From positions 1 to 33,426 of the forward strand of contig JACRGV010000115.1 in the NCBI GenBank assembly GCA_016212215.1: a stretch of DNA of 33,426 nucleotides. Reading direction: 5' to 3'. The stretch comes from Nitrospirota bacterium (GTDB taxonomy: Bacteria; Nitrospirota; 9FT-COMBO-42-15; HDB-SIOI813). Under the pieces are notes generated by a model. That model was not told where the DNA came from and made no database searches. It was given only the letters and a program-made list of their open reading frames with translations. A program made the position numbers and the translations under genes. Each line of letters starts with the position of its first letter. The first letter of the stretch is position 1. Shown here piece after piece: positions 2,961-22,034 of this stretch.

Positions 2961-3154
2961 ATTAACAATTTCTATCATATTTTTTTCAAAGCATAAGAGG
3001 CTCTTACAAAAGTCCCAAAAAGCTGTCATTCCCGCATGTTTTTAGCGGGAATCTATCGTTTTTTAACAGAAAAACATATCCGTCCACGAATGTTTTTATC
3101 GGGGATAGATGATTTCGGGGATAACAGAGACTTTTGCAAGAGCCTCATAAAACC
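2961..3154 (+). repeat. Left copy of the R-M island direct repeat, interrupted by a MITE
   Basis: Bases 2961-2996 followed by 3151-3154 match 11745-11786 with one mismatch and a 2-nt gap: ATTAACAATTTCTATC, then a T-rich run, then CAAAGCATAAAACC. The MITE at 2997-3146 plus a duplicated ATAA splits this copy. The two copies bracket the whole R-M locus in direct orientation. Confidence 0.85.
2997..3146 (+). mobile_element. 150-bp MITE-like element with 18-bp terminal inverted repeats
   Basis: The left end GAGGCTCTTACAAAAGTC (2997-3014) is repeated in inverted form at 3129-3146 with one mismatch. ATAA flanks the element on both sides (2993-2996 and 3147-3150) as a target-site duplication. The interior has no transposase, but contains an inner GTCATTCCCGC..GCGGGAAT inverted repeat. 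The uninterrupted sequence at 11745-11786 shows the empty site, so the boundaries are well defined. A non-autonomous element moved by a transposase elsewhere is the natural reading. The insertion provides the TGA stop of the metallopeptidase gene. Confidence 0.85.
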
Positions 3155-3450
3155 TTCAATTTATTATCACGCAATTCCCAACCAGGCATATAAACATTCA
3201 TGTAACTCTTCCAGAGTGAGCCATGATTAGGGGTGCGAAGATGCATCAGCTCATGGACAATGACATATTCCCCGAGTCCTCTCTCTATATTCAGCAGTTC
3301 AGCATTAAAATTCAGGCGGCCGTTTTGGGAACATGAGGCCCACTTGTTTTTCATAGGACGCAGATATATTGATTGAACCTTGATCTCAAGTTTATCCGCC
3401 CATGTCAGAACGGACGATTTAAAATCTTTTCTGTTTTCCCATCTTGTCAT
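3145..3450 (-). CDS. Short YgjP-like (M48-type) zinc metallopeptidase of the R-M locus
   Basis: Predicted zinc-dependent peptidase of 101 residues. HELMH at residues 66-70 followed by His76 (in TPNHGSLW) gives the expected metal ligands and catalytic Glu67; WASCSQNGRLNFN before it matches the conserved WGSC strand of the YgjP/DUF45 family. It is shorter than typical YgjP proteins (about 170-240 residues) and keeps only the catalytic half. Its ATG overlaps the hsdR stop by 4 bp, so it is probably translationally coupled. Small peptidases of this kind are often seen next to hsdR, but the substrate is unknown. Its last codon and stop lie at the MITE junction, so the original C-terminus was slightly longer. 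Confidence 0.85.
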   Translation of the reverse strand: MTRWENRKDFKSSVLTWADKLEIKVQSIYLRPMKNKWASCSQNGRLNFNAELLNIERGLGEYVIVHELMHLRTPNHGSLWKSYMNVYMPGWELRDNKLKVL

Positions 3451-6398
3451 TTATCATTCCTTGACTTCCCGATCAGGCGGAAAAGGTTATCTACTATTTC
3501 AGAAACTTTATCGAGGTTGTCATCAGAGAGTGTGCCAGAGAGTATGGTAGACCGGCAGATCCTGAACGTTGTCTTTTGCCTGGCCTCCCGCATGGATTTA
3601 TCGCTGTGTGCCCAATCAGGATATTCTATCAGTATCTCTTTTATATCTTTACCTGCCTGTTCAGCGTCTGAAAGACCGCCTTCCCTCAGGTAGTTGTAAA
3701 TGAAATAAGTCAACCCATCCAACCTGAGTTCGGCCTGCTCCTTCTTGCGTTGTTCGTTCTGTTCAATCATTTTAAGCAGTGTATCCAGGGCTTCGGAAGT
3801 CGTTGTCTGGCGGTCCTCATAGTTTTCCCGAACGGCTTTTGCCCTTTCAGCCATGGCGATAAGATAAGGGTCATCGCTATGTTCTTCAGCAATCCGTTCA
3901 ATGCCTTTAATAAGGTTAATTATTTTTGTGTTATCCCCGCCTTCTTTCTTTTTGATAATCTCAATAGTTTTTTCGTCTATTGCAATAATCTCGTCTACCG
4001 CCTGCAAGCCACATACACCAACATGCTCCCTTACAAGCTCATTCGTCTTACGCTGAAATTCCTTATCAACATAGACCTTATTTGTGTATGCCTTCCTAAC
4101 AATATCATACATGGCCGAGAGCGCCCTGTAATCATCTATGTACTCTCGTAAGAAGGCATCGGGCGATATGATCTCATAAAGCATTTCCAGCTCTTTGTAA
4201 TCTTTAAAAAACTCTTTGCGCCTTTCTTTGTCACGGAAATGTCCAATCAGGTTATCTACATCCTTGTCATTAAAATTGTGCTGAATTAGTTTAAGGTAGT
4301 CCGGTGCCTTACTCTCCATCTTGTTTCTGAATAACATCTTTAAAAGTGAAAGGTCCTTAACAATGGCGTTTATTTCATCGCTGTCAAAGGCAAGGGCCTT
4401 TTCCAGTTTCTCAAAGATACCTATAAAATCCAGAACAAATCCATGAGGCTTTACCATCTCCTTTTCTTCATCCTCATAAGGGCGATTGACACGGGCTATG
4501 GTCTGCAATAGGGTATGGTCACGCATCGGTTTATCCAGATACATGGCATAAAGAATGGGGACATCAAAACCTGTGAGGAGTTTTTCTGTGACAATAAGGA
4601 TTTGCGGGGGCTCGCCATATTTAGTAAATGCCTTTCGAATCTGCCTCTCTTTCTTCTCTTCAAGATGGAATTCCTTCAGCAGCGCCGTGTCATTATTATT
4701 CCCGGTATAGACAACTTGCGAGTATTCCTGCGGCAGGTATTTATCCAGCGCCTTCTTGTAGAGTGCGCATGCCTCGCGGTCAACACCTACAAGAAATGCC
4801 TTATACCCCAGCGGTTCCACATTCTCCCTGTAATGCCTTGCAACAAACTGCGCAATATTTTCAATACGGTCCTGTGCCTTCAGGAAGTTTTTCAGATTCA
4901 CCGCACGGTCGAGGATCTTATTCAACTCTTCAATATCTGCAATACCTTCTGTCTCTGCGAGGGAGAGAAACTCCTTATCTAATTGTTCATAAGGTACACG
5001 CATGTCGTTGGGCGCAAGGTTATAATAAAGTGGAAGGGTTGTGCCGTCTTCGATACTCTCAGAAATGGAATACTTGTGCAGATACCCTTTCTCATCTTCC
5101 ATGCCGAATGTCTTGAATGTGCCTTTACCGTAGGCTGTTTTATCCACCGGCGTTCCGGTAAAGCCTATATAAGTTGCGTTGGGAAGCCCTGCCATCAGGT
5201 AATTACCGAGGTCACCTCCTGTTGTCCGGTGGGCTTCATCTACCAACACGAAGATATTGCTTCTCGTGCTTATGTTAGCGGGCATGTCCCTGAATTTGTG
5301 AATCATAGTCACGATAATGCCGCGATAATCGGATCTTAAGAGTTCATTGAGGCGGCTGATTTTATACGCATGTTCCACATTTCCCAAACCAAGCGAAAGC
5401 AGGTTTTTGAGCATCTGGTCTTCCAGCTCATTGCGGTCTATCATCAGGATTACCGTAGGCTTGTCAAGTTTCGGAGCCTTGAAAAGCATTTCAGCAGACT
5501 TGATCATTGTATAGGTCTTACCGCTCCCCTGAGTATGCCAGATGAGTCCCCTGTGCCGGGCCGCATCATGAGACCGTTCCATGATCCGCTCAACAGCGGC
5601 AGTCTGGTGCTGGTGGAGAATGAACTTTGACAGCTCTTCATCTTTCTCCACGAAAAGGATGTAGTCTTTGATAAACTTCAAGACCTGAGGAATGGCGCAG
5701 AAGGTCTTGATTTTCCCCTCAAGGTTGCCCGCCTCTTCATCCTTCCAGTTGAAGATATTGCGGCGCAAAGAATTCCATGTCACACCATAGAAGAAACCAA
5801 TGGCCTCGGTAGCAGTATAAATCTGCTCAGGGACAAAAAACTCCGGCGTCTCCCGGTGATAGCGGCGGATCTGGTCTATACCGAGTGCTATGGCTTCATC
5901 TTTATTAGCATTTTTACACTCAATGACCAGCACCGGTATGCCGTTGATGAGAAAAACCACATCCTCGCGATTGCCGTAATGCCCGTTGAACCAGTAGAAT
6001 TCCTCTGTTACCTCAAATATATTGTTACGGGGATTCACATAATCAATCAGTATCAGATTCAGGTCACGGTTTTCTTCCTTATCAAAAAAGGTACCCTCGT
6101 TGCGGAGGTATTTGACAAAATCACGGTTTCCGTAAATGTCAGTTTTTAACTTGCTGAAAAGGCTGACCAGCGCCCCCTCTGTCTCCTGATAGCGGGGGTT
6201 AAACTCCCTGACCTTGGCATAGAGAGTATCTTCAAAATAGAGCGACGCCGTGCGGCACCGTTCCTGAATATCACTTGATCCTGAATTAAATCCACGCCGT
6301 TTTTCCGCAGTACTCCTGTCAACGTAAGACCAGCCGATTCCCTCTGCATATTTCAGGATGCGGGACTGGACGGTTTTGTGTTCAGTGAAAGAATTCAT
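3447..6398 (-). CDS. hsdR: Type I restriction enzyme, R subunit
   Basis: Motor and nuclease subunit of the HsdR2M2S complex, 983 residues. The N-terminal RecB-type nuclease shows Asp146, the ExK motif (IECK, Glu160/Lys162) and the QxxxY motif (Gln176-Tyr180). The SF2 translocase follows, with Walker A TQGSGKT (289-295), DEAH (387-390), FTGTP (413-417) and motif VI QTIARVNRP (632-640). A helical C-terminal region joins the MTase core. All key residues are present, so it should be active. Its ATG lies 3 nt after the stop of the 203-aa gene with no clear Shine-Dalgarno, which implies coupled translation and places the upstream cassette in the same operon. Confidence 0.97.
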   Translation of the reverse strand: MNSFTEHKTVQSRILKYAEGIGWSYVDRSTAEKRRGFNSGSSDIQERCRTASLYFEDTLYAKVREFNPRYQETEGALVSLFSKLKTDIYGNRDFVKYLRNEGTFFDKEENRDLNLILIDYVNPRNNIFEVTEEFYWFNGHYGNREDVVFLINGIPVLVIECKNANKDEAIALGIDQIRRYHRETPEFFVPEQIYTATEAIGFFYGVTWNSLRRNIFNWKDEEAGNLEGKIKTFCAIPQVLKFIKDYILFVEKDEELSKFILHQHQTAAVERIMERSHDAARHRGLIWHTQGSGKTYTMIKSAEMLFKAPKLDKPTVILMIDRNELEDQMLKNLLSLGLGNVEHAYKISRLNELLRSDYRGIIVTMIHKFRDMPANISTRSNIFVLVDEAHRTTGGDLGNYLMAGLPNATYIGFTGTPVDKTAYGKGTFKTFGMEDEKGYLHKYSISESIEDGTTLPLYYNLAPNDMRVPYEQLDKEFLSLAETEGIADIEELNKILDRAVNLKNFLKAQDRIENIAQFVARHYRENVEPLGYKAFLVGVDREACALYKKALDKYLPQEYSQVVYTGNNNDTALLKEFHLEEKKERQIRKAFTKYGEPPQILIVTEKLLTGFDVPILYAMYLDKPMRDHTLLQTIARVNRPYEDEEKEMVKPHGFVLDFIGIFEKLEKALAFDSDEINAIVKDLSLLKMLFRNKMESKAPDYLKLIQHNFNDKDVDNLIGHFRDKERRKEFFKDYKELEMLYEIISPDAFLREYIDDYRALSAMYDIVRKAYTNKVYVDKEFQRKTNELVREHVGVCGLQAVDEIIAIDEKTIEIIKKKEGGDNTKIINLIKGIERIAEEHSDDPYLIAMAERAKAVRENYEDRQTTTSEALDTLLKMIEQNEQRKKEQAELRLDGLTYFIYNYLREGGLSDAEQAGKDIKEILIEYPDWAHSDKSMREARQKTTFRICRSTILSGTLSDDNLDKVSEIVDNLFRLIGKSRNDK

Positions 6399-6401
6399 AA
6401 C

Positions 6402-7013
6402 TTAAGTTCTATCTATAGACTCTCTTATTCTCGTAAAATGAATTGACAATTTAAATAAGAATAAATAGAACCCATAGTTGCTCAACATAAATATTTTTCT
6501 GTTATTCAATGTTGCCCTATCTATGCTTAAATTGTCACAATTACATATTTTATCAAAAAAGACAAAGGAATCGTTTTGCAATTCACCCGCAGACGGGAGA
6601 AAGAAAATCTGTGAGACTCTTTGTGCTCTTATATCCTGAATGTGTTTAGGAATCCTGGTATCCGATAAATCCGGGTACTTGCTTTTTAGCATGCCCTCAT
6701 ACTTGTTTAGCTTAAAAATAGGACAATAACAAATTGATGATGCAAACAGGCCAGAGTTAGAGGTATCCATATCGCAAGAGTTAGAGATAATGATTGCCTT
6801 ACCCGCACCAATCTTTGTATCCGGTAGGTTAACCAGCAACATTCCATTAAGCCCATCGCCCTGAAGAATATCATTTGGGTATAAATATTTATTTGAATAA
6901 AAACGGGCATCAATATTTAAGGGAAATTGAGTAAGTTCCTGAAAGAGGCTTAGTGTGGATTCTTCTGATAAATATTTCGGAAGGAAAATACGGAAATCAT
7001 CTAATGCAATCAT
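6402..7013 (-). CDS. Unrecognised 203-aa protein of the three-gene cassette
   Basis: Family not recognised. The product is soluble, with no signal peptide or membrane helix. It has a central beta-type stretch ending in AIIISNSCDMDTS and later KHIQDIRAQRVSQIFFLPS. The ISNSCDMD segment, with Cys and Asp close to a hydrophobic strand, could be a functional site, but that is only inference. The ATG at 7013 overlaps the TGA of the 99-aa gene as ATGA, so this start is preferred over a TTG four codons upstream. The codons are more AT-rich than hsdR and hsdS, suggesting separate acquisition. It lies directly before hsdR. Confidence 0.8.
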   Translation of the reverse strand: MIALDDFRIFLPKYLSEESTLSLFQELTQFPLNIDARFYSNKYLYPNDILQGDGLNGMLLVNLPDTKIGAGKAIIISNSCDMDTSNSGLFASSICYCPIFKLNKYEGMLKSKYPDLSDTRIPKHIQDIRAQRVSQIFFLPSAGELQNDSFVFFDKICNCDNLSIDRATLNNRKIFMLSNYGFYLFLFKLSIHFTRIRESIDRT

Positions 7014-7309
7014 AAAATATTCCAAAACTCATCATTGATTGCTTTCGAAAATTCAGGAGGGATATCAACAGATTCTTTCAAAATGTTTTCTGTAAATCTT
7101 TTAATGATTTGATATCTGTTTTGACCAATCAAGTCATAATATTGATCTGCTTTTGTTTCTTCCCATGAATATCTTTTTGAGACAATGGGTAAATCGTAGT
7201 TTTTGGAAGGTACAGGCAATGCGTCTTCTAAGGGATAACCCTGTAAAGCAATAAGAGATAGGGAAACTGGAATAATTAGCTTTGAAACAGTATTACGTGT
7301 TTCAGACAT
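7010..7309 (-). CDS. Unrecognised 99-aa protein of the three-gene cassette
   Basis: Small protein with no recognised domain. It has one hydrophobic N-terminal segment (about residues 10-25, KLIIPVSLSLIALQGYP), which is weak for a membrane anchor. The rest is charged and mainly helical, ending in KAINDEFWNIL. A strong Shine-Dalgarno GGAGG lies 7 nt before the ATG in the 13-bp gap after the TIGR04255-like gene, and the stop overlaps the next start as ATGA. Size and position would suit an antitoxin, adaptor or immunity-like partner of its neighbours; nothing in the sequence proves this. Confidence 0.75.
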   Translation of the reverse strand: MSETRNTVSKLIIPVSLSLIALQGYPLEDALPVPSKNYDLPIVSKRYSWEETKADQYYDLIGQNRYQIIKRFTENILKESVDIPPEFSKAINDEFWNIL

Positions 7310-7322
7310 TAGTCACCTCCAA

Positions 7323-8057
7323 TCATTCAGCAGCATAGACAGGATTCATCTCTGCTATTAAATCGTCTTTTAGAAGATCGAAAAACAATCGTTTTTCTTC
7401 ATTATGTGCATTACCGATAATTTCATCCGGATTCTGGAAAATTGGTAAATTATCAATCTCGATGTACGTATCAATATCAATAACTGAGCCTGTTATGATG
7501 GCATTAGTAGTTGCAACCTGCGCATTGTTGGCAATCTGTAAATTAGTAGTGAAGTTGCTCGTTTGAATAATAGTACGTACTGTTGTTTGATTGGCTTTTA
7601 ATCGTCCCCCACTCATAAATATTTCAAGGTTAATCCTATCATATATATCAAAGGGAAACATATTGATGTACCTTATTCCTAATCGGTTAAAGTTTGTCAC
7701 TAATTCCAGTCCTTGAACCTTTAATAGCGCATCTTTTATCCTTGAGTAAAACGCGTCCCATCCTAAATAATTTTTTTGATTTATAAAATTTATAACCCTG
7801 GGACCAATTTGTAAAAGGTAATTTTCATTCTGGAAACGATAATATGGCTGAAAACGGAAATTTGGATCTTGCGAGCGTATCGCTTCAGGTATTTGTAGTA
7901 TTGGGAGGTTTTCAACTTTATCATGAAATTCCTCTCTAAATGATTTATAAATTATCCCAAATATGGCATCAGCAGGCATTACTGAGTCAAACCTGAAGTC
8001 AACAACAGCTTCAATAATTGGACAAGGTTCTATTTTAATAGGTATCTTTTTCGTCAT
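7323..8057 (-). CDS. TIGR04255-like family protein
   Basis: A 244-residue protein that matches the general pattern I know for the TIGR04255 family: about 250 residues, a start of the PCPIIEAVVDFRF type, and a middle with RYINMFPFD. The family is sporadically distributed and has no established function. No signal peptide or membrane span is visible. The ATG at 8057 is chosen because the conserved N-terminus begins directly after it; a GTG eight codons upstream lacks support. It is the first of three tightly packed genes (13-bp gap, then ATGA overlap) that run into hsdR. Codon use is AT-rich compared with hsdM and hsdS. Confidence 0.8.
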   Translation of the reverse strand: MTKKIPIKIEPCPIIEAVVDFRFDSVMPADAIFGIIYKSFREEFHDKVENLPILQIPEAIRSQDPNFRFQPYYRFQNENYLLQIGPRVINFINQKNYLGWDAFYSRIKDALLKVQGLELVTNFNRLGIRYINMFPFDIYDRINLEIFMSGGRLKANQTTVRTIIQTSNFTTNLQIANNAQVATTNAIITGSVIDIDTYIEIDNLPIFQNPDEIIGNAHNEEKRLFFDLLKDDLIAEMNPVYAAE

Positions 8058-8300
8058 AATTTTTTGGCCCGCACAAAACACCGGACTCCTGCCTGGGGAG
8101 AGTCGCTAAACTATTGCACATTCCAAAATGAAAAGCAAGACAGGGACTCAATAGCCCGTATTTTTGTGCCTGTTATTACAGGACTACCCTTTGAAATTTT
8201 TGTCCAACCGCTGACGTTCTCATAATATCCCTCCGGCTAATACTGATTTTTTCAGTTATATAGCATTTTTATTTATTATACAATCAAATTAAAATGAAAG
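8058..8300 (-). other. Gap between hsdS and the three-gene cassette
   Basis: No complete gene. One minus-strand stretch around 8110-8235 reads SKGSPVITGTKIRA after an in-frame stop, faintly like a DUF433 antitoxin core, but without a start or adequate length. A fragment near 8226-8240 resembles the edge of the hairpin-module repeat. The AT-rich part at 8255-8300 could hold a promoter for the cassette-hsdR genes, but no convincing -35/-10 pair was found. Confidence 0.45.
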
Positions 8301-9551
8301 TTAAACCGTAAGATCAATATCATTGACCCTTATCTGCGCTGTCATCAACTGGTGCAACAGGGTGCGGAAGAGGTCAGAAAGTAAGGCATGTTTGCGCTTG
8401 TGCAATTCTTCTTTCGCTGACAATGCATCAAGTGCGGCAACAATTTCGCGCTGCTCATTTAGCTGAGTATATGGAATAGGCAACTCCGCCAGCTTCGATT
8501 GAGATAAGTTCGGGATGGTCGTTACATTTCCCCTGCCAAAATACAGGTGCCCAAACTCAAACGCATACCAGAGCCAATACATCAAGAAGGCCGGCTCAAC
8601 ATTCTCGAGATTGACAGCCCTCACTCGATGAAGATGGTTTTGATGGTAACAAGCAGCCAACTCTCCGTTCCACATTGCTGTACGCCCAATGTCGCCACCC
8701 TCACAAACAAGCAGGTCTCCCGGCTGTAAGGTCAATCGCTTTTCTTCCGCTTCAGTGAAGTACATTTCGTCAAGTTCTGACAAATCAAGTCGGCCCCAAA
8801 AGACATTTTTCGTGCGGAGGAAAGGACACTGGTTATCGCCAATGCGGTTCTTCTTTGAAACCTGCTTACCTTGCTGAATTCGGAACAATGAGTCAAGGCG
8901 CACCACCTTCCAACTCTCCGGTACGGGGCCGATTTCGGTTTGTTTTTGGGGTTCGCCGTGCAGGCCCTGGGTGAAGAGTTGGTGGAGGAGTGTCTTTTTC
9001 AGTTCCGTAGTCAGTGCAATCAGCCGTTCCTGTTGCTCGATCGCCTGCTGTACCTGTCCCAACACTGCTGCAATTTTCCTCTGCTCGGGGAGGGGAGGAA
9101 CATAGAGTTTAAACTCTCGTAATGCCGCCCATGATGTACGCGGATGCTGAACACCCGATGTCGTTTTTTTTGAGTGACCTACGAACTCGTCTGTATGTGT
9201 CAAGAGGCATAAAAACTCAGGGATGCACTTCTCCGTCGCTCGGAATACGAGAATGTCTGTCGAACAGATGCCGTCCTCGCTCACCAACACGGACTTGCGA
9301 AGATAAGGACGCAGCTTGCCGAAAAGAATATCATCTTTGCGGAACGTTGTCTTGCCACTGCGAACATCAGATTCCTTTCCACGGCCCACCAGCGTGGGAA
9401 GCCCAGACGCAAGATGTTCAAGACCGAGATACAAACGTTGCCCGTTAGCCGAGGGCGACGCGGCGTCTTGGACACGCCTGCAAATGTCATCAAGTCTTGC
9501 TTGCATCCAACCGCGAGGAGGGTCTTCCAAGAGTAGCGAGTAGTCAGTCAT
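8301..9551 (-). CDS. hsdS: Type I restriction enzyme, specificity (S) subunit
   Basis: DNA-recognition subunit, 416 residues, with the usual two-part plan. Target recognition domain 1 covers about 1-155, followed by a conserved helical spacer (PLPEQRKIAAVLGQVQQAIE, about 155-200). Domain 2 starts near PESWKVVRLDSLFRIQQGK (about 213), and a second spacer begins at LNEQREIVAALDAL (about 365). Each half begins with the W-x(3)-L-D type motif. The recognition sequence cannot be predicted from here. The ATG lies 5 nt after the stop of a 34-codon ORF whose last codons contain the hsdS ribosome binding site (GGAGGGGGA). Confidence 0.95.
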   Translation of the reverse strand: MTDYSLLLEDPPRGWMQARLDDICRRVQDAASPSANGQRLYLGLEHLASGLPTLVGRGKESDVRSGKTTFRKDDILFGKLRPYLRKSVLVSEDGICSTDILVFRATEKCIPEFLCLLTHTDEFVGHSKKTTSGVQHPRTSWAALREFKLYVPPLPEQRKIAAVLGQVQQAIEQQERLIALTTELKKTLLHQLFTQGLHGEPQKQTEIGPVPESWKVVRLDSLFRIQQGKQVSKKNRIGDNQCPFLRTKNVFWGRLDLSELDEMYFTEAEEKRLTLQPGDLLVCEGGDIGRTAMWNGELAACYHQNHLHRVRAVNLENVEPAFLMYWLWYAFEFGHLYFGRGNVTTIPNLSQSKLAELPIPYTQLNEQREIVAALDALSAKEELHKRKHALLSDLFRTLLHQLMTAQIRVNDIDLTV

Positions 9552-9661: not shown

Positions 9662-9725
9662 AATTGAGAATCTGGAATTAGGAATGTAGAAAAACATTTC
9701 GTAATTCATAATTTGGAATTAGTAA
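9662..9725. repeat. AATTC-rich heptamer-type repeat before the 34-codon ORF
   Basis: Degenerate units such as TAATTCATAATT and GGAATTAGGAAT are related to the cleaner array at 10093-10157. The tract encodes the last residues of the four-helix-bundle gene (RITNSKL), so that C-terminus is repeat-derived. Confidence 0.6.
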
Positions 9726-10080
9726 TTCTTTTCGATTTCATAGTTTTGATGATGCTTCCTGTGAGCTTCAAGAGTTCTTCGCAGTCTGTGATGATAGAGG
9801 TAGATTCGTTTGCGCCGAGGTATCCGGAATCACGCAGCAGACGCAGCCAATAATGCGTCTCTCTCGCTTCTTTGTAGGCAATGCTCATTTTAGCCGAGAA
9901 ATCCCTTTCCGATTGTCCGCCAATAGCCTCCTCCACATTGGCCCCGATGGAGGTTCCGCTGCGCAGCACCTGTTTGGAAAGAACAAATTCCTTTTTCTGT
10001 TCCGATAGATGCTGATACAATTTCACCATCCGCAAGGCAAATGCATACGACTTTTCTTGAACAATATTATCATGTTTCAT
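9706..10080 (-). CDS. Four-helix-bundle protein (23S rRNA intervening-sequence type)
   Basis: A 124-residue all-helical protein of the bVP/S23 family, first known from ORFs in 23S rRNA intervening sequences. Typical motifs are visible: YAFALRMVKLYQ in helix 1, LSKQVLRSGTSIGANVEEA, then AKMSIAYKEARETHYWLRLL. Members form pentamers with a basic surface; the cellular role is unknown. The ATG at 10080 is chosen over two TTG codons just upstream because GGGG lies 8 nt before it. It sits between hsdM and hsdS, a common location for this family, where it behaves as a passenger or accessory gene. Confidence 0.9.
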   Translation of the reverse strand: MKHDNIVQEKSYAFALRMVKLYQHLSEQKKEFVLSKQVLRSGTSIGANVEEAIGGQSERDFSAKMSIAYKEARETHYWLRLLRDSGYLGANESTSIITDCEELLKLTGSIIKTMKSKRITNSKL

Positions 10081-10092
10081 CAACAAATCCCC

Positions 10093-10174: not shown

Positions 10175-11728
10175 TCATATCCCTATCCTTGATAGAATCG
10201 CCCGCAATGCCGCATTTGTTTCCTTTGCCTCCTCATCAAGGGCGTTCAGTTCCTCCACAATCTCCGTAATCGGCCGGTATTCTTCGGCTTCGCTCACATG
10301 GATGTAACGGCTGGGTGAGATGTTGTAGTCGTTCCTGACGATTTCTTCTTTTGTCACAATACGGCTGAACTTTTCTATCTCTTCCCATTTGAGGAAGGCC
10401 GAGGCGATTTTTCCGATTCCTTCTTCCGTGATATAGTTTTTCGGGTCGCCTTTGGCGAATTCCTTTGAGGCATTGACAAGGAAGAGCTTGTTCTTCCGGT
10501 CTGCCGGTTTCAATTTATTCAGGAAGAGGATGATCCCCGGTGCAGAGGTATTGTAGAAGAGGTTTTCCGGCAGGTAAAGCACCCCTTCCATAATATCATT
10601 TTCAACAAACCACTTGCGGACTTCCTTTTCCTTATTGCTGTTGGAATTGCCGGAGCCTCGGCTTGCTGCGCCGGTGTCAAAGACTACAGCGGCCTTTCCT
10701 CTGTCATTCAGGCTCGCAAAGATATGCTGCATCCAGCCCCAATCGGCCTTGTTTCCGGGGTATCCGGCGCCGTTAGGGAAGCGTCCGAATGTATCGGCAT
10801 TGTAATCCCTTTCCCCGAACATGGTCTGGTTCCACATGGGATTAGCAACTACGCGGTCAAAGGTCATGAGCCTATTGTTATCCCTGAACTTAGGATTACG
10901 GAAGGTGTCGCCTATTTCTATCTGACCTTCCATGTCATGAATAATCATGTTCATGTTGGCCATGGCCCAGGTCTGGGCGATGTATTCCTGTCCGTAGAGT
11001 GTCAACCCGGAAAACTTCTTTCTCCCCTGACCCTGCATCTTTTCATTCAGCGCCAGTTCACATTTTATAAGAAGCCCTGCGGAGCCGCAGCAGGGGTCGT
11101 AGATGGTCATCCCATGTTCGGGGTTCATAATCTTTGCCATTATCATACCCACTTCTTTCGGAGTGTAGAATTCCCCGGCGCTCTGCCCGCCCCCTTCGGC
11201 GAACTTGCGTATGAGATATTCGTAACTTCTGCCGATGATGTCCGGTTCTACGTCATTAAGCCCAAGACGTTTAGTACTGACCTTTTCTATGAGATTGGAA
11301 AGCCTGTCATCATCTATATCACGTACGCCGTGGGTCGTGGCATTAAAGTCCACACGGTCAATAATTCCGGAAAGAAGGGGGTTTTCTTTGGCAACAGCGC
11401 GCAGGTGCGTTGTAAGGGTTTCACCAATTTTAGCAGTCAGTTTGCGGATAGCAGTCCAGACCGGCTCTTCTGCATTATTTGATTTCAGGGGGATATAAAA
11501 CCGTACCAGCTTTTTATCATGTTCAACGAGTCTGAATGCCTTCTCTCTTGAACCGACTTCTGACGCAATCCGGTTGATTTCATCATCAAAGACATCGCAG
11601 AGACGTTTAACAAAGATGAGTGGCAGGATGAAATCTTTATACTTAGGGGCGTCAACAGCACCGTGGATACTGCACGCTGCATCCCATATCCATGATTCCA
11701 TTGACTTGTTTTCTGGTTCTTTAGCCAT
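10175..11728 (-). CDS. hsdM: Type I restriction enzyme, methyltransferase (M) subunit
   Basis: N6-adenine DNA methyltransferase that modifies the site read by HsdS, 517 residues. The helical HsdM N-domain (about 5-150, starting WIWDAACSIHGAVDAPKYKD) is followed by the catalytic domain. SAM-binding motif I reads DPCCGSAG (211-218), with GEFYTPKEV (185-193) just before it, and catalytic motif IV reads NPMW (296-299) in place of the commoner NPPF. A start at ATG 11728 has GAAGG 6 nt upstream. It is the first R-M gene after the right direct repeat and probably begins the operon. Confidence 0.96.
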   Translation of the reverse strand: MAKEPENKSMESWIWDAACSIHGAVDAPKYKDFILPLIFVKRLCDVFDDEINRIASEVGSREKAFRLVEHDKKLVRFYIPLKSNNAEEPVWTAIRKLTAKIGETLTTHLRAVAKENPLLSGIIDRVDFNATTHGVRDIDDDRLSNLIEKVSTKRLGLNDVEPDIIGRSYEYLIRKFAEGGGQSAGEFYTPKEVGMIMAKIMNPEHGMTIYDPCCGSAGLLIKCELALNEKMQGQGRKKFSGLTLYGQEYIAQTWAMANMNMIIHDMEGQIEIGDTFRNPKFRDNNRLMTFDRVVANPMWNQTMFGERDYNADTFGRFPNGAGYPGNKADWGWMQHIFASLNDRGKAAVVFDTGAASRGSGNSNSNKEKEVRKWFVENDIMEGVLYLPENLFYNTSAPGIILFLNKLKPADRKNKLFLVNASKEFAKGDPKNYITEEGIGKIASAFLKWEEIEKFSRIVTKEEIVRNDYNISPSRYIHVSEAEEYRPITEIVEELNALDEEAKETNAALRAILSRIGI

Positions 11729-11744
11729 TAGACACCTTCAATTG

Positions 11745-11786
11745 ATTAACAATTTCTATCCTATTTTTTTATCAAAGCATAAAACC
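11745..11786 (+). repeat. Right copy of the R-M island direct repeat (intact)
   Basis: ATTAACAATTTCTATC, a T-rich run and CAAAGCATAAAACC, nearly identical to 2961-2996 plus 3151-3154 and in the same orientation. It lies between hsdM and the ATPase pseudogene and contains the last four codons and stop of the latter. It represents the empty target of the MITE at 2997. Confidence 0.85.
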
Positions 11787-12989
11787 ATACTGTGTGTTTT
11801 CAAGCTCTGTATGTTTCCTTGAGATAATTCGACAGCTCTTGAGATTAAGCTCTCCGGTTATTGTCTTTAATCGTTTTAAGTCCTGCTCATAAGGCATCAG
11901 CTTTACTTCGTACGCATGATTTTTATCCAGGATGAAATCAATCTCAGCTCCGCTTTTTCGCTGATAATAATTGACCTCTCCCTTGTCCCTCAGCGCTGAA
12001 TAAATTGCGTTTTCAAATAATGCACCCTCGCCAATGCCGGCAAACTGCCCGGTAATTTGCCCGGTGATATGCCCGGTGATATGCCCGGTGATATGATTGA
12101 TAATCCCAGTATCGCATAAATAAAATTTAGGCATACTGCGTATCTCAGAGTCCCGGCTGCGGCTGAATGGCCTGATAAGGGAGATAAAGTAGGTATTTTC
12201 AAGGAAGGCCATATAGTTATAAATCGTTTCTCTTGATACCCCCAACTCTTTAGAGAGCTTTTGAAAATCCAGTTTGGAACCGACCCGCTCCATAAGAAGC
12301 AGCATCAGATCTCTGATCACATTGGTCTTTCTGAAATCCCCAAGCTGAATAACCTCAAGATGGAAGTAAGAGGAAAAGATATCCTGAAGCATCATCCTCT
12401 TCTCTTCTGACGATTCCTTCAAGACCACTCCGGGGAATCCACCGAACATAATATAGTCACTGTAATACCTGTCAATCTCTTCAAAGAGTCCCCTGGCAAC
12501 CCTGCCTTGAATGTTTTCAAGCCTGAGTGCAGGATTCTTTGCACTCAGATATTCACGGAAGTTAAATGGGTGAAGCTCAAAGAGATACTTTCGCCCTGAC
12601 AGAGACTCTGAAAAAAGATTTTTTAGATAGAAACTTGAAGACCCGCTGAGAAAAAACTTTATCCTGTAATGATCAGCAAGGTATTTGACAACTGAAGGGA
12701 TTTGGCTGACAAATTGTATCTAATCGAGAAATACAAACCCGCTTTCCCCGGTTTTAAGACCCAGGAACATCAGTGCATCTAATATCTTCTCATAATTAGT
12801 CTCTTCAAAATGCTTACGGTTAACAGGATTCTCAAGGTCAATGAATATCTTGTTATCCGACTCAATCTCCTGCATGATATGCCGTAGCAGGGTAGTTTTC
12901 CCAACACGCCGCATCCCGGTAATAACAATGGCCTCCGGTGTATTTATGTATTGCCGTACCTTTTGATATAATTCCCTCACTATTTGCAT
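11772..12989 (-). pseudogene. AAA_14/DUF4143 ATPase interrupted by one amber codon
   Basis: P-loop ATPase of the AAA_14-DUF4143 type, about 405 codons. It has Walker A in GMRRVGKTTL (residues about 25-34), a sensor region SGSSSFYLKN, a winged-helix segment (LSKELGVSRETIYNYMAFLE) and a C-terminal nuclease-like fold ending SGAEIDFILDKNHAYEVKL. The frame is open throughout except for TAG at 12720-12722, exactly where the Walker B sequence should read VFLDEIQ; here it reads VFLD-stop-IQ. One G-to-T change from GAG explains it. Start ATG at 12989. It is probably an inactive allele, unless the amber codon is suppressed. The family is often called a toxin-antitoxin-like ATPase, but its role is unproven. 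Confidence 0.88.
12047..12094. repeat. Four 12-bp tandem units inside the ATPase frame
   Basis: GCCCGGTAATTT followed by three GCCCGGTGATAT units. Translated on the minus strand they give the repeating tetrapeptides HITG and QITG within the DUF4143 half. Being 12 bp long, the units change copy number without a frameshift. Confidence 0.85.
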
Positions 12990-15116: not shown

Positions 15117-15290
15117 AGCATGAGCCGTTGGCTCACAAAGGAGCAAGGGAATCCCCCCTCTTAAGATAAGAGGGGGGATAGGGGGAGTTATGAAATGCAT
15201 AGAAGAACGATGCATCCATAGCGATAACCCCCCTTGCCCCCCTTAATTTAAGGGGGGAGCCATTTGCGTTAAAAAAGGATTTTCGGATGA
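15117..15290 (+). repeat. Hairpin-module repeat filling the gap before the CotH-like gene
   Basis: It begins TGAGCCGTTGGCTCACAAAGG directly after the barrel gene, contains two long CT/GA palindromes (about 15150-15185 and 15224-15260) around an ATGCAT-containing core, and ends AAGGATTTTCGGATGAAG. The ATG of the CotH-like gene is part of this end. A diverged copy of the same layout follows that gene at 17083-17270. Confidence 0.85.
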
Positions 15291-17086
15291 AGATAAATCA
15301 GATAATCATTTTAACAGCAATTATTTTGTTCATGGGATGGATTGATGCAGGTGCGGCAGAAAACCATTTCAAGACGCTTGACCTTGAAATGGATACTAAG
15401 GATGCGGAGGTACTGTTCCGCAAGGAACCTTATGATACATCTACTTTCCCTGTAGATATTGTAGAAAATGGCACTCGCATTTCCGGCCGTGTTGAAGTAT
15501 CCGGACAATTTACCCGCACATTTCTCAAAAAGTCCTTACTGATAAGAATTAACGAAGGACATACATGGCAGGGCAACAGAAAAATATCCCTTCACTCTAT
15601 GTCTACTGACCCTTCATATATGCGTGATTGGATAGCGTGGAACCTGGCGTCTTCACTCGGCATGGCCTCTCCAAAAGTAGAATATTACCGGCTGAATATT
15701 AACGGAAAATTCATCGGCCTTTATCTGTTTATCGAATGGATTGATACGTCTATGCTTAACCGCATTGGGCTTGGGAAAGACGGTGAATTCTATCACCCGG
15801 ATGACATTGTATACTGCGGTGACATGGAGCCTGCAAATCAAGGTCGTTTGGAAGAGTGTTGGTTAAAGCTTTCTCCTAAAGACAGGGATTTTGCCTCTCT
15901 GCGTAATCTGATTGAGGAGATTAATTCAACACCGGTTGAGCAGTTCCACAGCTTTTTAAATGAGCATTTTGATGTAGACTCAGTAATTAACTGGCTGGTC
16001 TTAAATACCATAATAGGTAATGGCGATACATACAATAAGAACTACTTCCTCTATCACAGCAAAAAAACAGGTAAATGGGTAATTATCCCATGGGATTTTG
16101 ATCTTACCTTCGGACGCAATGCCGACCCTGTCCTGCCGTTTCCGAGTAATATCCTTAATGATAATTATCAGTATTTTTATACACCTGAGCTTGGCAGTCC
16201 CAACCCATTAAAAGAAAAGACATTAAAGAATGACCAGTTGTTTCAGTACTTTAAAAAACGTATCAGCCATGTCCTCGGTGTAACAATAGAAAAGGAGCAG
16301 CAGGGATTTTTTGAGAAACTACGCAAGGAAAGTAAGCCTGTCGGCGGTTTTGCATGGTTCCGTCCTAATGAATTTAATAGTCTTGTGAACTCATTGGAGC
16401 TTACTATTAAACAGGACTTATCAAAAGAGCTGTATCCGGGTGCAAAAGGGGAACCTTTTGAGCAACAGGTTGAGGCATTGCGATTATACAATCAATGGCG
16501 TTATCCTCTTCTTAAAAAAATGATCCTTGAGCCCACACCATTTAATACTGCCCATTGGCTGCCATACTTCACGTTTCCGCCATTAACACTGCCCGGTGAG
16601 GATGAAAAAAAACTACGTCAGACAGTTCAATTGAATATGACTGCGAGTGCTGAAATCAGAGAAGGTGATAAATCTGTAGTGCTTATGGAGGAGCTTCTCG
16701 CAAGACCAGTCGGCATACTTTATATACAGGAATTGAATAGACCTGCACGAGTCAGGTTAGAGGTTGAGACAGAGCGTATCCCTGAATCGTTGCCACCTGA
16801 AATAAGCCCGTTAAAATGTATACAGCGTACATGGTATCTTGATATCAAAACCCCTGATACTCTCCTTAAGGTTAATCTGCAATTGGATTATCTTCAGGAA
16901 AGTTCCCTCCGGCATGAGCTGGGGGATGGGATAACAGATGAGCATAATATGTCGTTGTGGGTACTACAAAACAACAACTGGCGGAGACTGCAAACGGGTG
17001 TAAACGTAATCGCAAATGTATTAAAAGCCGGGGGCATAGAATTAGTTTCAGGCAGTGTATTACGCTTTGCCGCCTGCGAGGAATGA
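15287..17086 (+). CDS. CotH kinase family protein, exported
   Basis: A 599-residue protein with a Sec signal peptide (about 1-24, IIILTAIILFMGWIDAGAA). It carries the CotH protein-kinase-like domain: early FKKS-type strand (FLKKSLLIRIN), then YRLNINGKFIGLYLFIEWID, then KNYFLYHSKKTGKWVIIPWD and DFDLTFGRN, which holds the metal-binding Asp. A C-terminal beta-rich extension (about 430-599) is unassigned. CotH proteins phosphorylate or otherwise modify extracellular proteins and often accompany exopolysaccharide genes; the substrate here is unknown. The start codon and its AAGGA ribosome binding site belong to the flanking repeat. The following repeat overlaps its TGA stop. Confidence 0.88.
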   Translation: MKINQIIILTAIILFMGWIDAGAAENHFKTLDLEMDTKDAEVLFRKEPYDTSTFPVDIVENGTRISGRVEVSGQFTRTFLKKSLLIRINEGHTWQGNRKISLHSMSTDPSYMRDWIAWNLASSLGMASPKVEYYRLNINGKFIGLYLFIEWIDTSMLNRIGLGKDGEFYHPDDIVYCGDMEPANQGRLEECWLKLSPKDRDFASLRNLIEEINSTPVEQFHSFLNEHFDVDSVINWLVLNTIIGNGDTYNKNYFLYHSKKTGKWVIIPWDFDLTFGRNADPVLPFPSNILNDNYQYFYTPELGSPNPLKEKTLKNDQLFQYFKKRISHVLGVTIEKEQQGFFEKLRKESKPVGGFAWFRPNEFNSLVNSLELTIKQDLSKELYPGAKGEPFEQQVEALRLYNQWRYPLLKKMILEPTPFNTAHWLPYFTFPPLTLPGEDEKKLRQTVQLNMTASAEIREGDKSVVLMEELLARPVGILYIQELNRPARVRLEVETERIPESLPPEISPLKCIQRTWYLDIKTPDTLLKVNLQLDYLQESSLRHELGDGITDEHNMSLWVLQNNNWRRLQTGVNVIANVLKAGGIELVSGSVLRFAACEE

Positions 17087-17270
17087 GGCCCCCTCACAAA
17101 GGCACAAAGGGCAAAGAGAATCCCCCCTCTTAAGATTAAGAGGGGGAAGGGGGAGTTATGAAGTGCGTAGAAAAACGATGCATCATAGCTATAACCCCCT
17201 CTTTCCCCCTTAAATTAAGGGGGATGATTAAGGGCAATCGGTGTTAAGAAGGGATTTTTGAGTGAATAAT
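17083..17270 (+). repeat. Hairpin-module repeat after the CotH-like gene
   Basis: Starts ATGAGGCCCCCTCACAAAGG, overlapping the upstream stop, and ends AAGGGATTTTTGAGTGAA. The interior follows the 15117-15290 copy closely, including the TCCCCCCTCTTAAGAT arm and the ACGATGCATC core. Together the two copies bracket the CotH-like gene as direct repeats. Confidence 0.85.
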
Positions 17271-17294
17271 TCTACAAAGGAGGGAATCTGGTAA
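17262..17294 (+). CDS. Possible 10-residue leader ORF
   Basis: The GTG of the repeat terminus opens a frame that encodes MNNSTKEGIW and then stops. AAAGGAGGG inside it (17275-17283) resembles a ribosome binding site for a downstream start. It may be a translated leader for the carrier gene or simply show that the repeat brings a start codon wherever it lands. Low confidence as a real peptide. Confidence 0.2.
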   Translation: MNNSTKEGIW

Positions 17295-17323
17295 ATCCCG
17301 GACATGCCTTCTTTATTCAGTTC

Positions 17324-18676
17324 ATGGACGTTGTTTGGACACTGCGTATACCGTTATTACTGTTTTTTGCTGCCTATATTGTAAAGGAACTGTGGATATT
17401 GCGTGCCCATGAGAGATGGCATGCGATCCTGATGTTCAGTTATTTCTTTCTCATCATCTCTACATATTGGCTTATCAAGCCTGTTAAAAAGGCCCTGCTT
17501 GTTGGTTATTATCAGGTCTCAGGCTTGACTTTAGCCGGTTGGTATCTTGATGCCGCACAGGTTGAGCTGATAGCAAAAGAGTTAAATATGTTCCTTGCAC
17601 TTGCGGCAGCGATATTATTTTCCTGGCTTGCCTCCCGTTACAAACGTGAAAGATTGACCCTTTTCATTACCGGAATGTTTGCGCTGGGATTTGCCCTTTT
17701 TGCCTCTGCCCTTCTCAATCCCGCACACATCACTGTCTGGATGTTTTATTTATTTGGAGACATCTTCGTTACGATTATGGTGGCAGGCTTTTTCGCGTTT
17801 CTTAATGACAGCGAAGATGTGCACACTGCACGCCGTCTCTATGGCCTGATCGGACTTGGAGGAATCATGGGCGGTTTCTTCGGCAGTGCAGTAGTTGCCG
17901 GATATTCCAGAAAGATAGAGCCGTCTACGGCATCATTGGCCTGTGTGGGGCTGTTGGTATTGATTGCCGGAATCTCATGGTTATTCGGCAGACTGGTTAA
18001 GAGGACTACACCGGTAGATTTACCTGCTGCCGCCTCTGTTGCAGGGTATAAGGTATTACAGCACGGGGTAAAGACAGTGCTATGCTCGCCCTATCTGCTT
18101 GGCATAGCCGCTATCGTAGGGCTGTATGAAATGGTCTCATCTATAATGGATTATCAGTTTACTAACACGGTTCTGCATTTTGTTTCAGGCGACCAGCTAA
18201 AGGCACATTTTGCAAGTGTTTATTCTTTTACGAACTTCATTTCTCTGATACTTCAGGTCTTTATCACCCGGATGGTGATGGTCAGATATGGGGTGGACAA
18301 GGCATTGTTTTTCCTGCCGGTAACAGCTACCTTGGGAGAGGCCGCATTCATTCTTCTTCCAGGCCTGCTGGCGGGGAGCCTTCTTAATACTATGGATAAT
18401 GCCTTCAGCTATTCCATCAATCAATCAGCCAAAGAGGTCTTGTATGTGCCGGTAGAACGGGAGGAAAAATACAAGGCAAAGGCATTGATTGATATTTTTA
18501 TACTACGCGGGGCAAAGGCAATAGCCGTGGCACTCAGCCTTGTACTGGCACTCGTATTCGCAGGGTTTGAGAGTGTGAGATGGCTATCAATAATTGTGGT
18601 TGGCCTGTTAATAGTATGGCTGTTGGTTATCCGGTACATTGGCCAGAGGTACAGAAAAATGGAACGAGGAGTTTGA
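17324..18676 (+). CDS. Npt1/Npt2 (TlcC)-type nucleotide carrier-like membrane protein
   Basis: A 450-residue integral membrane protein with about 11-12 predicted helices. Segments such as STYWLIKPVKKALLVGYY, TARRLYGLIGLGGIMGGFFG and NQSAKEVLYVPVEREEKYKA are typical of the ATP/ADP-carrier-like TlcC family, where the Lys-rich loops contact nucleotide. Free-living bacteria also carry distant members of unknown substrate, so nucleotide exchange is not certain. The start is unclear: ATG 17324 lacks a good ribosome binding site, while AAAGGAGGG at 17275-17283 lies far upstream, close to an in-frame CTG at 17288. It lies within the polysaccharide cluster between two repeat-filled gaps. Confidence 0.8.
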   Translation: MDVVWTLRIPLLLFFAAYIVKELWILRAHERWHAILMFSYFFLIISTYWLIKPVKKALLVGYYQVSGLTLAGWYLDAAQVELIAKELNMFLALAAAILFSWLASRYKRERLTLFITGMFALGFALFASALLNPAHITVWMFYLFGDIFVTIMVAGFFAFLNDSEDVHTARRLYGLIGLGGIMGGFFGSAVVAGYSRKIEPSTASLACVGLLVLIAGISWLFGRLVKRTTPVDLPAAASVAGYKVLQHGVKTVLCSPYLLGIAAIVGLYEMVSSIMDYQFTNTVLHFVSGDQLKAHFASVYSFTNFISLILQVFITRMVMVRYGVDKALFFLPVTATLGEAAFILLPGLLAGSLLNTMDNAFSYSINQSAKEVLYVPVEREEKYKAKALIDIFILRGAKAIAVALSLVLALVFAGFESVRWLSIIVVGLLIVWLLVIRYIGQRYRKMERGV

Positions 18677-18787
18677 GATGAGGCCCCCTCACCCGGACCC
18701 GCCGGGGGAGAGGGGAGTCTGAGATTATTCCCCCTCCCTTGACGGGAGGGGGTTAGGGGGAGGGTGAGCTATGGAGACTTTCATGTG
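18677..18787 (+). repeat. Palindromic repeat before the GT-C-like gene
   Basis: Begins ATGAGGCCCCCTCAC just after the carrier stop, as at 17083, and ends GGGTGAGCTATGGAGA followed by CTTTCATGTGAAG, as before gatA. Two CT/GA inverted repeats lie between. It fills the entire gap and supplies the GGAG ribosome binding site of the next gene. Confidence 0.8.
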
Positions 18788-20194
18788 AAGACCAAGTACT
18801 CAAAATATAACTTACTTCTCATTCTAATACCCGTCTATTTCCTTATCTACTTCTCAATAAATCACCTGCTGGAAGGGCATAACCTCATGCACCCATATCT
18901 CTTATTTTATGGAGAAAAGGCCCTCCTTGCCTTGAATGGTGTACCGCCGAGGCTTGAGAACATAGGATTTATATATCCTCCTCTTCCGATTGTTATTTCC
19001 CTATTATTCATGGCGAATATATCCATTACACAGGGCTTCATCGCATCACTGATCAGTGCATTCATATCATGGGAAATCATTAACAACATTCAATCTAAAA
19101 AACTTGCCATCACACTTATCTTCTTCCTGATCTTCTCCATCCCAATCCTTTTTCTTGCTACCCAGAGATTTGATCTATACCTCCATTTCTTCTTTATTAT
19201 TTACAGTATCAAACTGTTGTATCAATATGTGAGACAGGAATACTCACTATATATTTTCACAGCAGGTCCACTGTTCGGGTTGTCTTTTTTTACGCATTTC
19301 AGCTCAATTTACCTCATCCCCTGGATATTTATTATTATATTCTTTCTGTACAGGAAGACCCTTAGGAAATTTATGGCAGTATCCTTTGTCTATTTTTCCC
19401 CTTATTTCCTCTTTTTCCTCTCCTTTGCATACCTCAACTGGGTATTCACAGGAAAGGCATTCGGGTTTCTCCCAAATTACAAACTGCTGTTTTCCAATTC
19501 AGAAATTACTGCCGCTATCTCTGCGGGAAGCATTACAGGGAGTTTATGGTTCATGCTTTCATATCTGCTGAAAGTAATACTCATAATAGCCCCTTTCCTT
19601 GCAGGAATTTTTTATGAAAAAAGACTTGTTTCATTAATCCCTTTCCTTGTCATCTTTTCTCTGATATATTCTAATCTCTTCTATCCGGCCATCTATGTAT
19701 CCTCAATATTTATTATATATTTCCTGATATTAATGAACTTTGAAAAAAAAGAAGCACATAATGTATTTATTGCTGCAATGGTTATCAGCCTTACATCCTC
19801 TTTTATACTTGCTTTAAATTCAAATGACGCATATGAGAGAAAATTTACTCATGCACTAACAGGTTCAATTGAAGAGAATACAGGGGGATACAAACAGATT
19901 GCAGAGATACTTAAATATAAAAAAGGGAAGATTTTGATTGATGATCAGGGTTTTTATCCTGTTGTCTATTTAATGAAGGACCCTGAACGGTTTATCCTTC
20001 CCTACCAGTATGAATTTAACTCAGCTATTGCAAATCCTGCCCTATTTGCCGATTATGTAATAGGTATGAAAGATAAAAACATGGATAAGGTATACCGGCG
20101 GTTTGAATATGGGGTAAAAGGATACTACACTATATTTGAAAACAAGGACATTATAATATGGGAGAAGACAAAATTAAGAGACAAAACGTCTTAA
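18785..20194 (+). CDS. Polytopic membrane protein, GT-C/GT39-like glycosyltransferase candidate
   Basis: A 469-residue membrane protein with 10 or more hydrophobic helices and a soluble C-terminal part (about 370-469). The first periplasmic loop (HPYLLFYGEKALLALNG, then GFIYPPLP) resembles GT-C enzymes, which use polyprenyl-phosphate sugars, but the diagnostic Asp pair is not clear, so this is tentative. GTG at 18785 is chosen since GGAG lies 8 nt before it; an earlier ATG seven codons upstream is repeat DNA. Its end overlaps the BcsB-like gene by 37 bp, so the two are co-transcribed and probably work in the same polysaccharide pathway. Confidence 0.65.
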   Translation: MKTKYSKYNLLLILIPVYFLIYFSINHLLEGHNLMHPYLLFYGEKALLALNGVPPRLENIGFIYPPLPIVISLLFMANISITQGFIASLISAFISWEIINNIQSKKLAITLIFFLIFSIPILFLATQRFDLYLHFFFIIYSIKLLYQYVRQEYSLYIFTAGPLFGLSFFTHFSSIYLIPWIFIIIFFLYRKTLRKFMAVSFVYFSPYFLFFLSFAYLNWVFTGKAFGFLPNYKLLFSNSEITAAISAGSITGSLWFMLSYLLKVILIIAPFLAGIFYEKRLVSLIPFLVIFSLIYSNLFYPAIYVSSIFIIYFLILMNFEKKEAHNVFIAAMVISLTSSFILALNSNDAYERKFTHALTGSIEENTGGYKQIAEILKYKKGKILIDDQGFYPVVYLMKDPERFILPYQYEFNSAIANPALFADYVIGMKDKNMDKVYRRFEYGVKGYYTIFENKDIIIWEKTKLRDKTS

Positions 20195-22029: not shown

Positions 22030-22034
22030 GTATA

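Follow-up and report, generated by a model that had tools for sequence, protein, structure and literature searches.

What do three tightly packed genes do between hsdS and hsdR of a type I restriction-modification (R-M) operon, and are they tied to restriction? The question is posed by a 33,426-nucleotide stretch of Nitrospirota DNA (the window, i.e. the whole stretch analysed), in which a minus-strand operon runs in the order hsdM, a gene for a 23S-IVP-type four-helix protein, hsdS, genes A, B and C (the cassette), hsdR and a YgjP domain. Profile matches identify HsdM, HsdS and HsdR as genuine. The features concerned are as follows.

10175..11728, minus strand: hsdM of the host operon (N6_Mtase/HsdM_N)
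9706-10086, minus strand: 23S-IVP-type four-helix protein, between hsdM and hsdS
8301..9551, minus strand: hsdS, upstream of the cassette (Methylase_S match)
8058..8300, minus strand: gap of 243 nt between hsdS and gene A, possibly holding the cassette's own promoter
7323..8057, minus strand: gene A, TIGR04255 protein of 244 aa with an ATG start; proposed third component (antitoxin partner or sensor)
7010..7309, minus strand: gene B, 99 aa; proposed antitoxin
6402..7013, minus strand: gene C, 203 aa, phrog_4575; predicted MazF/PemK-fold toxin
3447..6398, minus strand: hsdR, downstream of the cassette (TIGR00348, 468 bits)
3145..3450, minus strand: ORF with a YgjP-like metallopeptidase domain, overlapping the end of hsdR

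The cassette and its genomic settings

The close packing described in the first-pass annotation is exact at every coordinate: 13 nt separate A from B, B and C share an ATGA overlap at 7010-7013, and C lies 3 nt from hsdR. The AT-richness that it remarked on is equally clear, with GC3 values of 0.29, 0.24 and 0.35 for A, B and C respectively against 0.52-0.56 in HsdM/S/R. A candidate promoter (TTAACT-18-TATAAT) was located at 8304-8275; promoter-like sites are no more numerous than in the shuffled background, and that the cassette possesses its own promoter upstream of gene A is only a suggestion.

The three genes travel together. A simple ORF scan recovered the A-B-C series, in the same order and with the same tight spacing, in no fewer than 91 of the 100 loci with gene C, the remaining nine being mostly contig edges or broken frames; gene A comes first in 91 of 100 trio loci. 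The distance matrices of the three proteins are correlated (Mantel r 0.64-0.76; permutation maximum 0.17). Relatives of gene C were found on 52 genome contigs and 43 viral contigs, spanning Bacteroidota, Verrucomicrobiota, Pseudomonadota, Desulfobacterota and others, and likewise on a Phocaeicola circular integrative element with an integrase and in the Pseudomonas phages VW-6S and Dobby. These copies on phages and the integrative element occupy cargo positions: the trio lies between CI and the integrase in VW-6S, and between the integrase and the portal gene in Dobby. Published hotspots of antiviral genes include the interval between CI and integrase in a P2-related phage and the flank of the portal gene in P2-like phages (PMC9122126). 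A-B-C is a real, separable and mobile unit.

Five homologous hsd operons, whose HsdR proteins are 74, 67, 68, 49 and 46% identical to that of the window, share the order hsdS-[cargo]-hsdR-ygjP where the contig shows it, and differ in the cargo. Between hsdS and hsdR lie SIR2 and HerA in one operon (L239), McrBC in a second (L240), an OLD-TOPRIM ATPase with a UvrD helicase (Gabija-like) in a third (L241) and a BECR-type RNase with a small partner in a fourth (L242); the fifth (L243), in which no HsdS match was found, carries a nucleotidyltransferase-like protein (recognised by eye) and HepT, i.e. an MNT-HepT pair. Since homologous operons hold different defence or toxin-antitoxin genes, we regard the hsdS-hsdR slot as a site for such cargo and the trio as one of its occupants. 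Type I hsd genes lie close to only two of the other 52 genomic loci (L030 and L040), so the cassette is independent of R-M, and the special link with restriction that had been read from its tight coupling to hsdR is not borne out. The accompanying proposal of an undescribed defence module stands in so far as the cassette is coherent, foreign and of a defence type, judging from its cargo slot, its positions in phages and an integrative element, and the MazF-type fold predicted for C.

Families and predicted folds of the three proteins

Gene A was initially described as TIGR04255-like, and it matches the NCBIfam model TIGR04255 over its full length (134.4 bits against a cut-off of 30; 5.9e-39; positions 2-252 of 252); 61 of 67 gene A homologues match the model too. 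Its AlphaFold2 model (pLDDT 94.7) predicts a duplicated beta-alpha-beta-alpha, TBP-like saddle fold, for which Foldseek returned weak matches to TBP and AdoMetDC (TM ~0.3), with no SecB among the structural matches listed; a fold search in viral models gave unnamed proteins and, weakly, proteins resembling early transcription factors. The NCBIfam entry calls the family 'sporadically distributed' and gives no function or partners. Neither TIGR04255 nor phrog_4575 is mentioned in the freely accessible, non-preprint literature searched, and TIGR04255 is likewise unmentioned in the HicA context paper.

Genes B and C have no family match in Pfam, NCBIfam or PADLOC, none of the three proteins matches the known anti-phage systems of PADLOC-DB 2023 in an HMM search, and comparison of the A, B and C profiles with PDB chain sequences yielded no credible relative; a match of gene B to 7yvb (E 0.0012) was discounted as compositional. 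All 68 gene C homologues match phrog_4575, which itself carries no function and no Pfam assignment. In contrast to these sequence searches, the AlphaFold2 model of C (pLDDT 91.4, from an alignment of 65 homologues) has only MazF proteins as its top PDB matches in Foldseek (E 9.2e-5, prob 1.00, TMt 0.72). An hhalign comparison with a MazF profile built on sequences from related genomes is co-linear but weak (E 9.6e-4, prob only 22%), pairing, in order, QGD of C with RGD of MazF, SN.CD..N with IQND..N, and esIv.lD with DSvv. Neither gene C nor any of the 68 aligned homologues matches PF02452, the MazF/PemK Pfam model, so that C is grouped with MazF by fold and not by family.

The conserved Arg and Thr of MazF are catalytic. 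The positions of C aligned with this Arg (before strand 3) and Thr, approximately K72 and S92-93, vary among homologues, and RNase activity of C is therefore not assured. The protein instead has a signature of its own, comprising QGD (51-53), SNSCD (77-81) and a C-terminal KLSIHFTR (188-195), within and around which Q51, G52, D53, C80, P140, L177 and R195 are invariant and S77, N78, D81, N86, R88, K188, S190, H192 and R202 nearly so. Distant C proteins at other TIGR04255 loci retain exactly QGD, CD and R195, and on this pattern of conservation these residues are likely to form the active site.

Gene B encodes a hydrophobic N-terminal stretch (~residues 8-22), a variable linker and a conserved C-terminal helix ending FWNIL. 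Its homologues diverge fast and range from 93 to 184 aa (mostly 95-125); 97% have an uncharged hydrophobic stretch that begins within the first 45 residues, and 56 of 68 a C-terminal helix-like segment ending FWDL(L/Y) or similar. By themselves, stretch and tail give B no identity, and as a sign that B needs A for stability the hydrophobic segment is only suggestive. The case for B as an antitoxin comes from the wider family.

Exchange of partners across the TIGR04255 family

TIGR04255 genes were collected from the window's phylum (present in 57 of 296 genomes), from Pseudomonadota, the phylum of Trinickia (24 of 299), and from Bacteroidota, the phylum of Thermophagus (12 of 248), giving 98 readable loci. 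About 80 of these have a small gene that abuts A or overlaps it, mostly through an ATGA, with a third gene generally coming next. Most have no C of the window's type. That TIGR04255 homologues may lack these two partners, an outcome to which the first-pass annotation had given adverse weight, is thus literally true of the majority, but in many of them these two positions are taken by different pairs of antitoxin/toxin type, and a toxin-antitoxin interpretation gains from this. Among 64 C-slot proteins, Pfam identified PemK in three, PIN in three, HEPN in three and zeta in one; by motif, QGD..CD MazF-like proteins stand behind TIGR04255 in 13 loci, and further occupants include additional HEPN-looking proteins (also by motif), a frequent 'RHANI..WP' protein and DUF7689.

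The small second gene varies correspondingly. At the PIN-type loci L124 and L217 the B protein ends in a VapB-type antitoxin tail, and both tails match the antitoxin of L270, a conventional PIN pair of two genes with no TIGR04255 gene within the stretch examined; for L217, 18 of 29 residues are identical. The PIN protein that follows in L124 is 43% identical to that of L270. Pfam further places an HTH_3 domain in three B proteins of the census. MazE-type tails in the canonical MazF loci (L173, L197 and L198) are only suggestive, as 6-74 of 500 shuffles aligned equally well with two annotated plasmid antitoxins, and HicBA-like pairs at L212, L214, L222 and L230 were seen by eye only, Pfam giving no match. 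Considered jointly, the VapB-type tails, the HTH_3 domains and the toxin families in the C slot indicate that slot B most likely holds an antitoxin and slot C a toxin, with A as the constant third component.

For roughly 15 TIGR04255 genes no partners are apparent, and a different explanation is called for. Those of L126, L208, L213, L225, L226 and L229, apparently without B or C neighbours, possibly form a separate subfamily with another role. The commonest partners in the window's phylum are a B protein of 160-170 aa and a C protein of 125-165 aa (RHANI..WP) that belong to no Pfam family (L108, L110, L112, L115, L117, L119, L130, L131 and others); this set is likely to be a new toxin-antitoxin pair. 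The window's own genome has a second TIGR04255 gene (L244, G000:C133:15564-16316), after which come a gene of 118 aa and a distant MazF-like gene with QGD..SQSCD (L113); farther on, this contig also carries a gene of the PemK family.

A candidate tripartite toxin-antitoxin system

The reading that we favour, and hold to be rather more probable than its competitors combined, is that the cassette constitutes a mobile tripartite toxin-antitoxin system resembling the SecB-type TAC modules, with TIGR04255 as third component and serving as a second line of defence. C would be a MazF-fold toxin, probably a ribonuclease, and B an antitoxin that occupies it by means of the conserved helix at its C-terminus and the FW(D/N)LL-type tail; without A bound to it, B would lack stability or solubility on account of its hydrophobic N-terminal stretch. 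Should A be stripped from B, by infection or because the operon is lost, B would fail and the freed C would halt growth or phage production. Positioned in the hsdS-hsdR slot, comparably to PrrC within EcoprrI, the trio could act as a second defence line behind restriction. The conserved unit and its mobility, the MazF fold predicted for C, the exchange of toxin types behind TIGR04255, the antitoxin tails at PIN-type loci and the cargo slot are observed; we infer the toxicity and RNase activity of C, its neutralisation, binding of B to C and of A to B, and triggering by or sensing of phage.

Within TAC modules a single chaperone family is paired with HigBA, HicAB and MqsRA (PMC5105189), the antitoxin being addicted to its chaperone, and in CmdTAC, which has a known role in defence, a phage capsid protein titrates the chaperone and so releases the toxin (PMC11618068). 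Similar to these systems (Mtb HigBA1-SecBTA, CmdTAC), the cassette comprises three adjacent genes, combines a conserved third component with several toxin-antitoxin families, and has an antitoxin of which one segment may depend on that component. Unlike them, its third component is a TIGR04255 protein of predicted duplicated TBP-like fold and not SecB, its genes run from third component through antitoxin to toxin, the candidate addiction segment lies at the N-terminus, and the toxin families are MazF-like, PIN, HEPN and zeta. As gene A is not SecB-like, the system is described as TAC-like and not as a member of TAC.

MazEF/PemIK (PF02452) offers parallels in the predicted fold of C, in the overlapping small upstream gene and in the true PemK that fills the C slot of other TIGR04255 loci. 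However, C, at 203 aa, has helices at both termini plus a helical hairpin insertion, its QGD..CD..R signature stands in place of the conserved Arg/Thr, B has no recognisable DNA-binding domain, and gene A is additional. The classical case of an RNase gene embedded in a type I operon is prrC in EcoprrI (PMC3874165, PMC2610378), and with EcoprrI/PrrC and the Rlo genes the cassette shares a predicted RNase effector inside a type I R-M operon. The proteins are nonetheless unrelated: the PrrC/RloC hallmarks (ABC ATPase, Arg-Glu-His nuclease domain) are absent from the small A, B and C proteins in Pfam, NCBIfam and PADLOC searches. Moreover, it is the R-M enzyme that keeps PrrC silent; the trio brings its own B and A, and mostly occurs without R-M. 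A cassette of this kind inside a restriction operon would extend the PrrC principle, with RNA targeting as a reserve behind DNA restriction.

Gene A is a member of TIGR04255, and it is the present analysis that links changing antitoxin/toxin pairs to that family. Whether TIGR04255 as a whole marks an unrecognised tripartite toxin-antitoxin superfamily, in which a conserved sensor or antitoxin chaperone serves interchangeable toxins (MazF-like, true MazF, PIN, HEPN, zeta and several unnamed), with the window's cassette representing a phage- and R-M-borne branch and a new MazF-fold enzyme class, is in our judgement evenly balanced. Were it the shared sensor or chaperone, many 'hypothetical' genes would fall into one class of defence system, independent of SecB.

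Of the alternatives, a plain addiction module that stabilises mobile elements or operons, in which A is required just for antitoxin folding or autoregulation and phage is not sensed, fares best. Maintenance would suffice as a reason for copies on phages and an integrative element, and a MazF-type toxin fold is compatible with it; but the trio lies at positions of the phage-defence hotspot type, and the other occupants of its slot, SIR2-HerA, McrBC and Gabija-like genes, are not addiction modules, and we consider this explanation unlikely. Less probable still is a membrane-anchored abortive infection system, with B as transmembrane anchor for A and C at the inner membrane and with C or A as an effector other than an mRNA interferase. 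The non-canonical active-site residues of C would suit it, as would the hydrophobic stretch that nearly every B protein carries close to its N-terminus, were that stretch not short (~15 residues, median KD 1.75) and weak in L026 and L047, and were B in the PIN-type loci not antitoxin-like rather than anchor-like. Lastly, regulation by these proteins of the activity or timing of HsdR in the surrounding R-M enzyme, as their place inside the operon 3 nt from hsdR might imply, is highly improbable given the rarity of hsd genes at the other genomic loci (two of 52) and the unrelated cargo that fills the slot in homologous operons.

Apart from the candidate tripartite system, the hsdM-hsdS interval also varies: the window has the IVP-type protein there, L239 has GIY-YIG and L240 a YhcG nuclease. 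All six operons (the window's and L239-L243) have a YgjP-like metallopeptidase ORF that either overlaps the end of hsdR or comes after it, which suggests a functional link with HsdR. At 11772-12449 the window encodes a DUF4143-type protein that covers just the C-terminal half of PDC-S01-like models and contains an in-frame HITGHITGHITGQITGQ repeat; it is probably a truncated ATPase relic. An Rfam search of the window found just one tRNA and no known RNA antitoxin family. Finally, a CotH kinase gene, a match to a TLC-type ATP/ADP transporter, a BcsB-like protein and a glycosyltransferase at 15287-23975 form a possible exopolysaccharide cluster beside the R-M locus.
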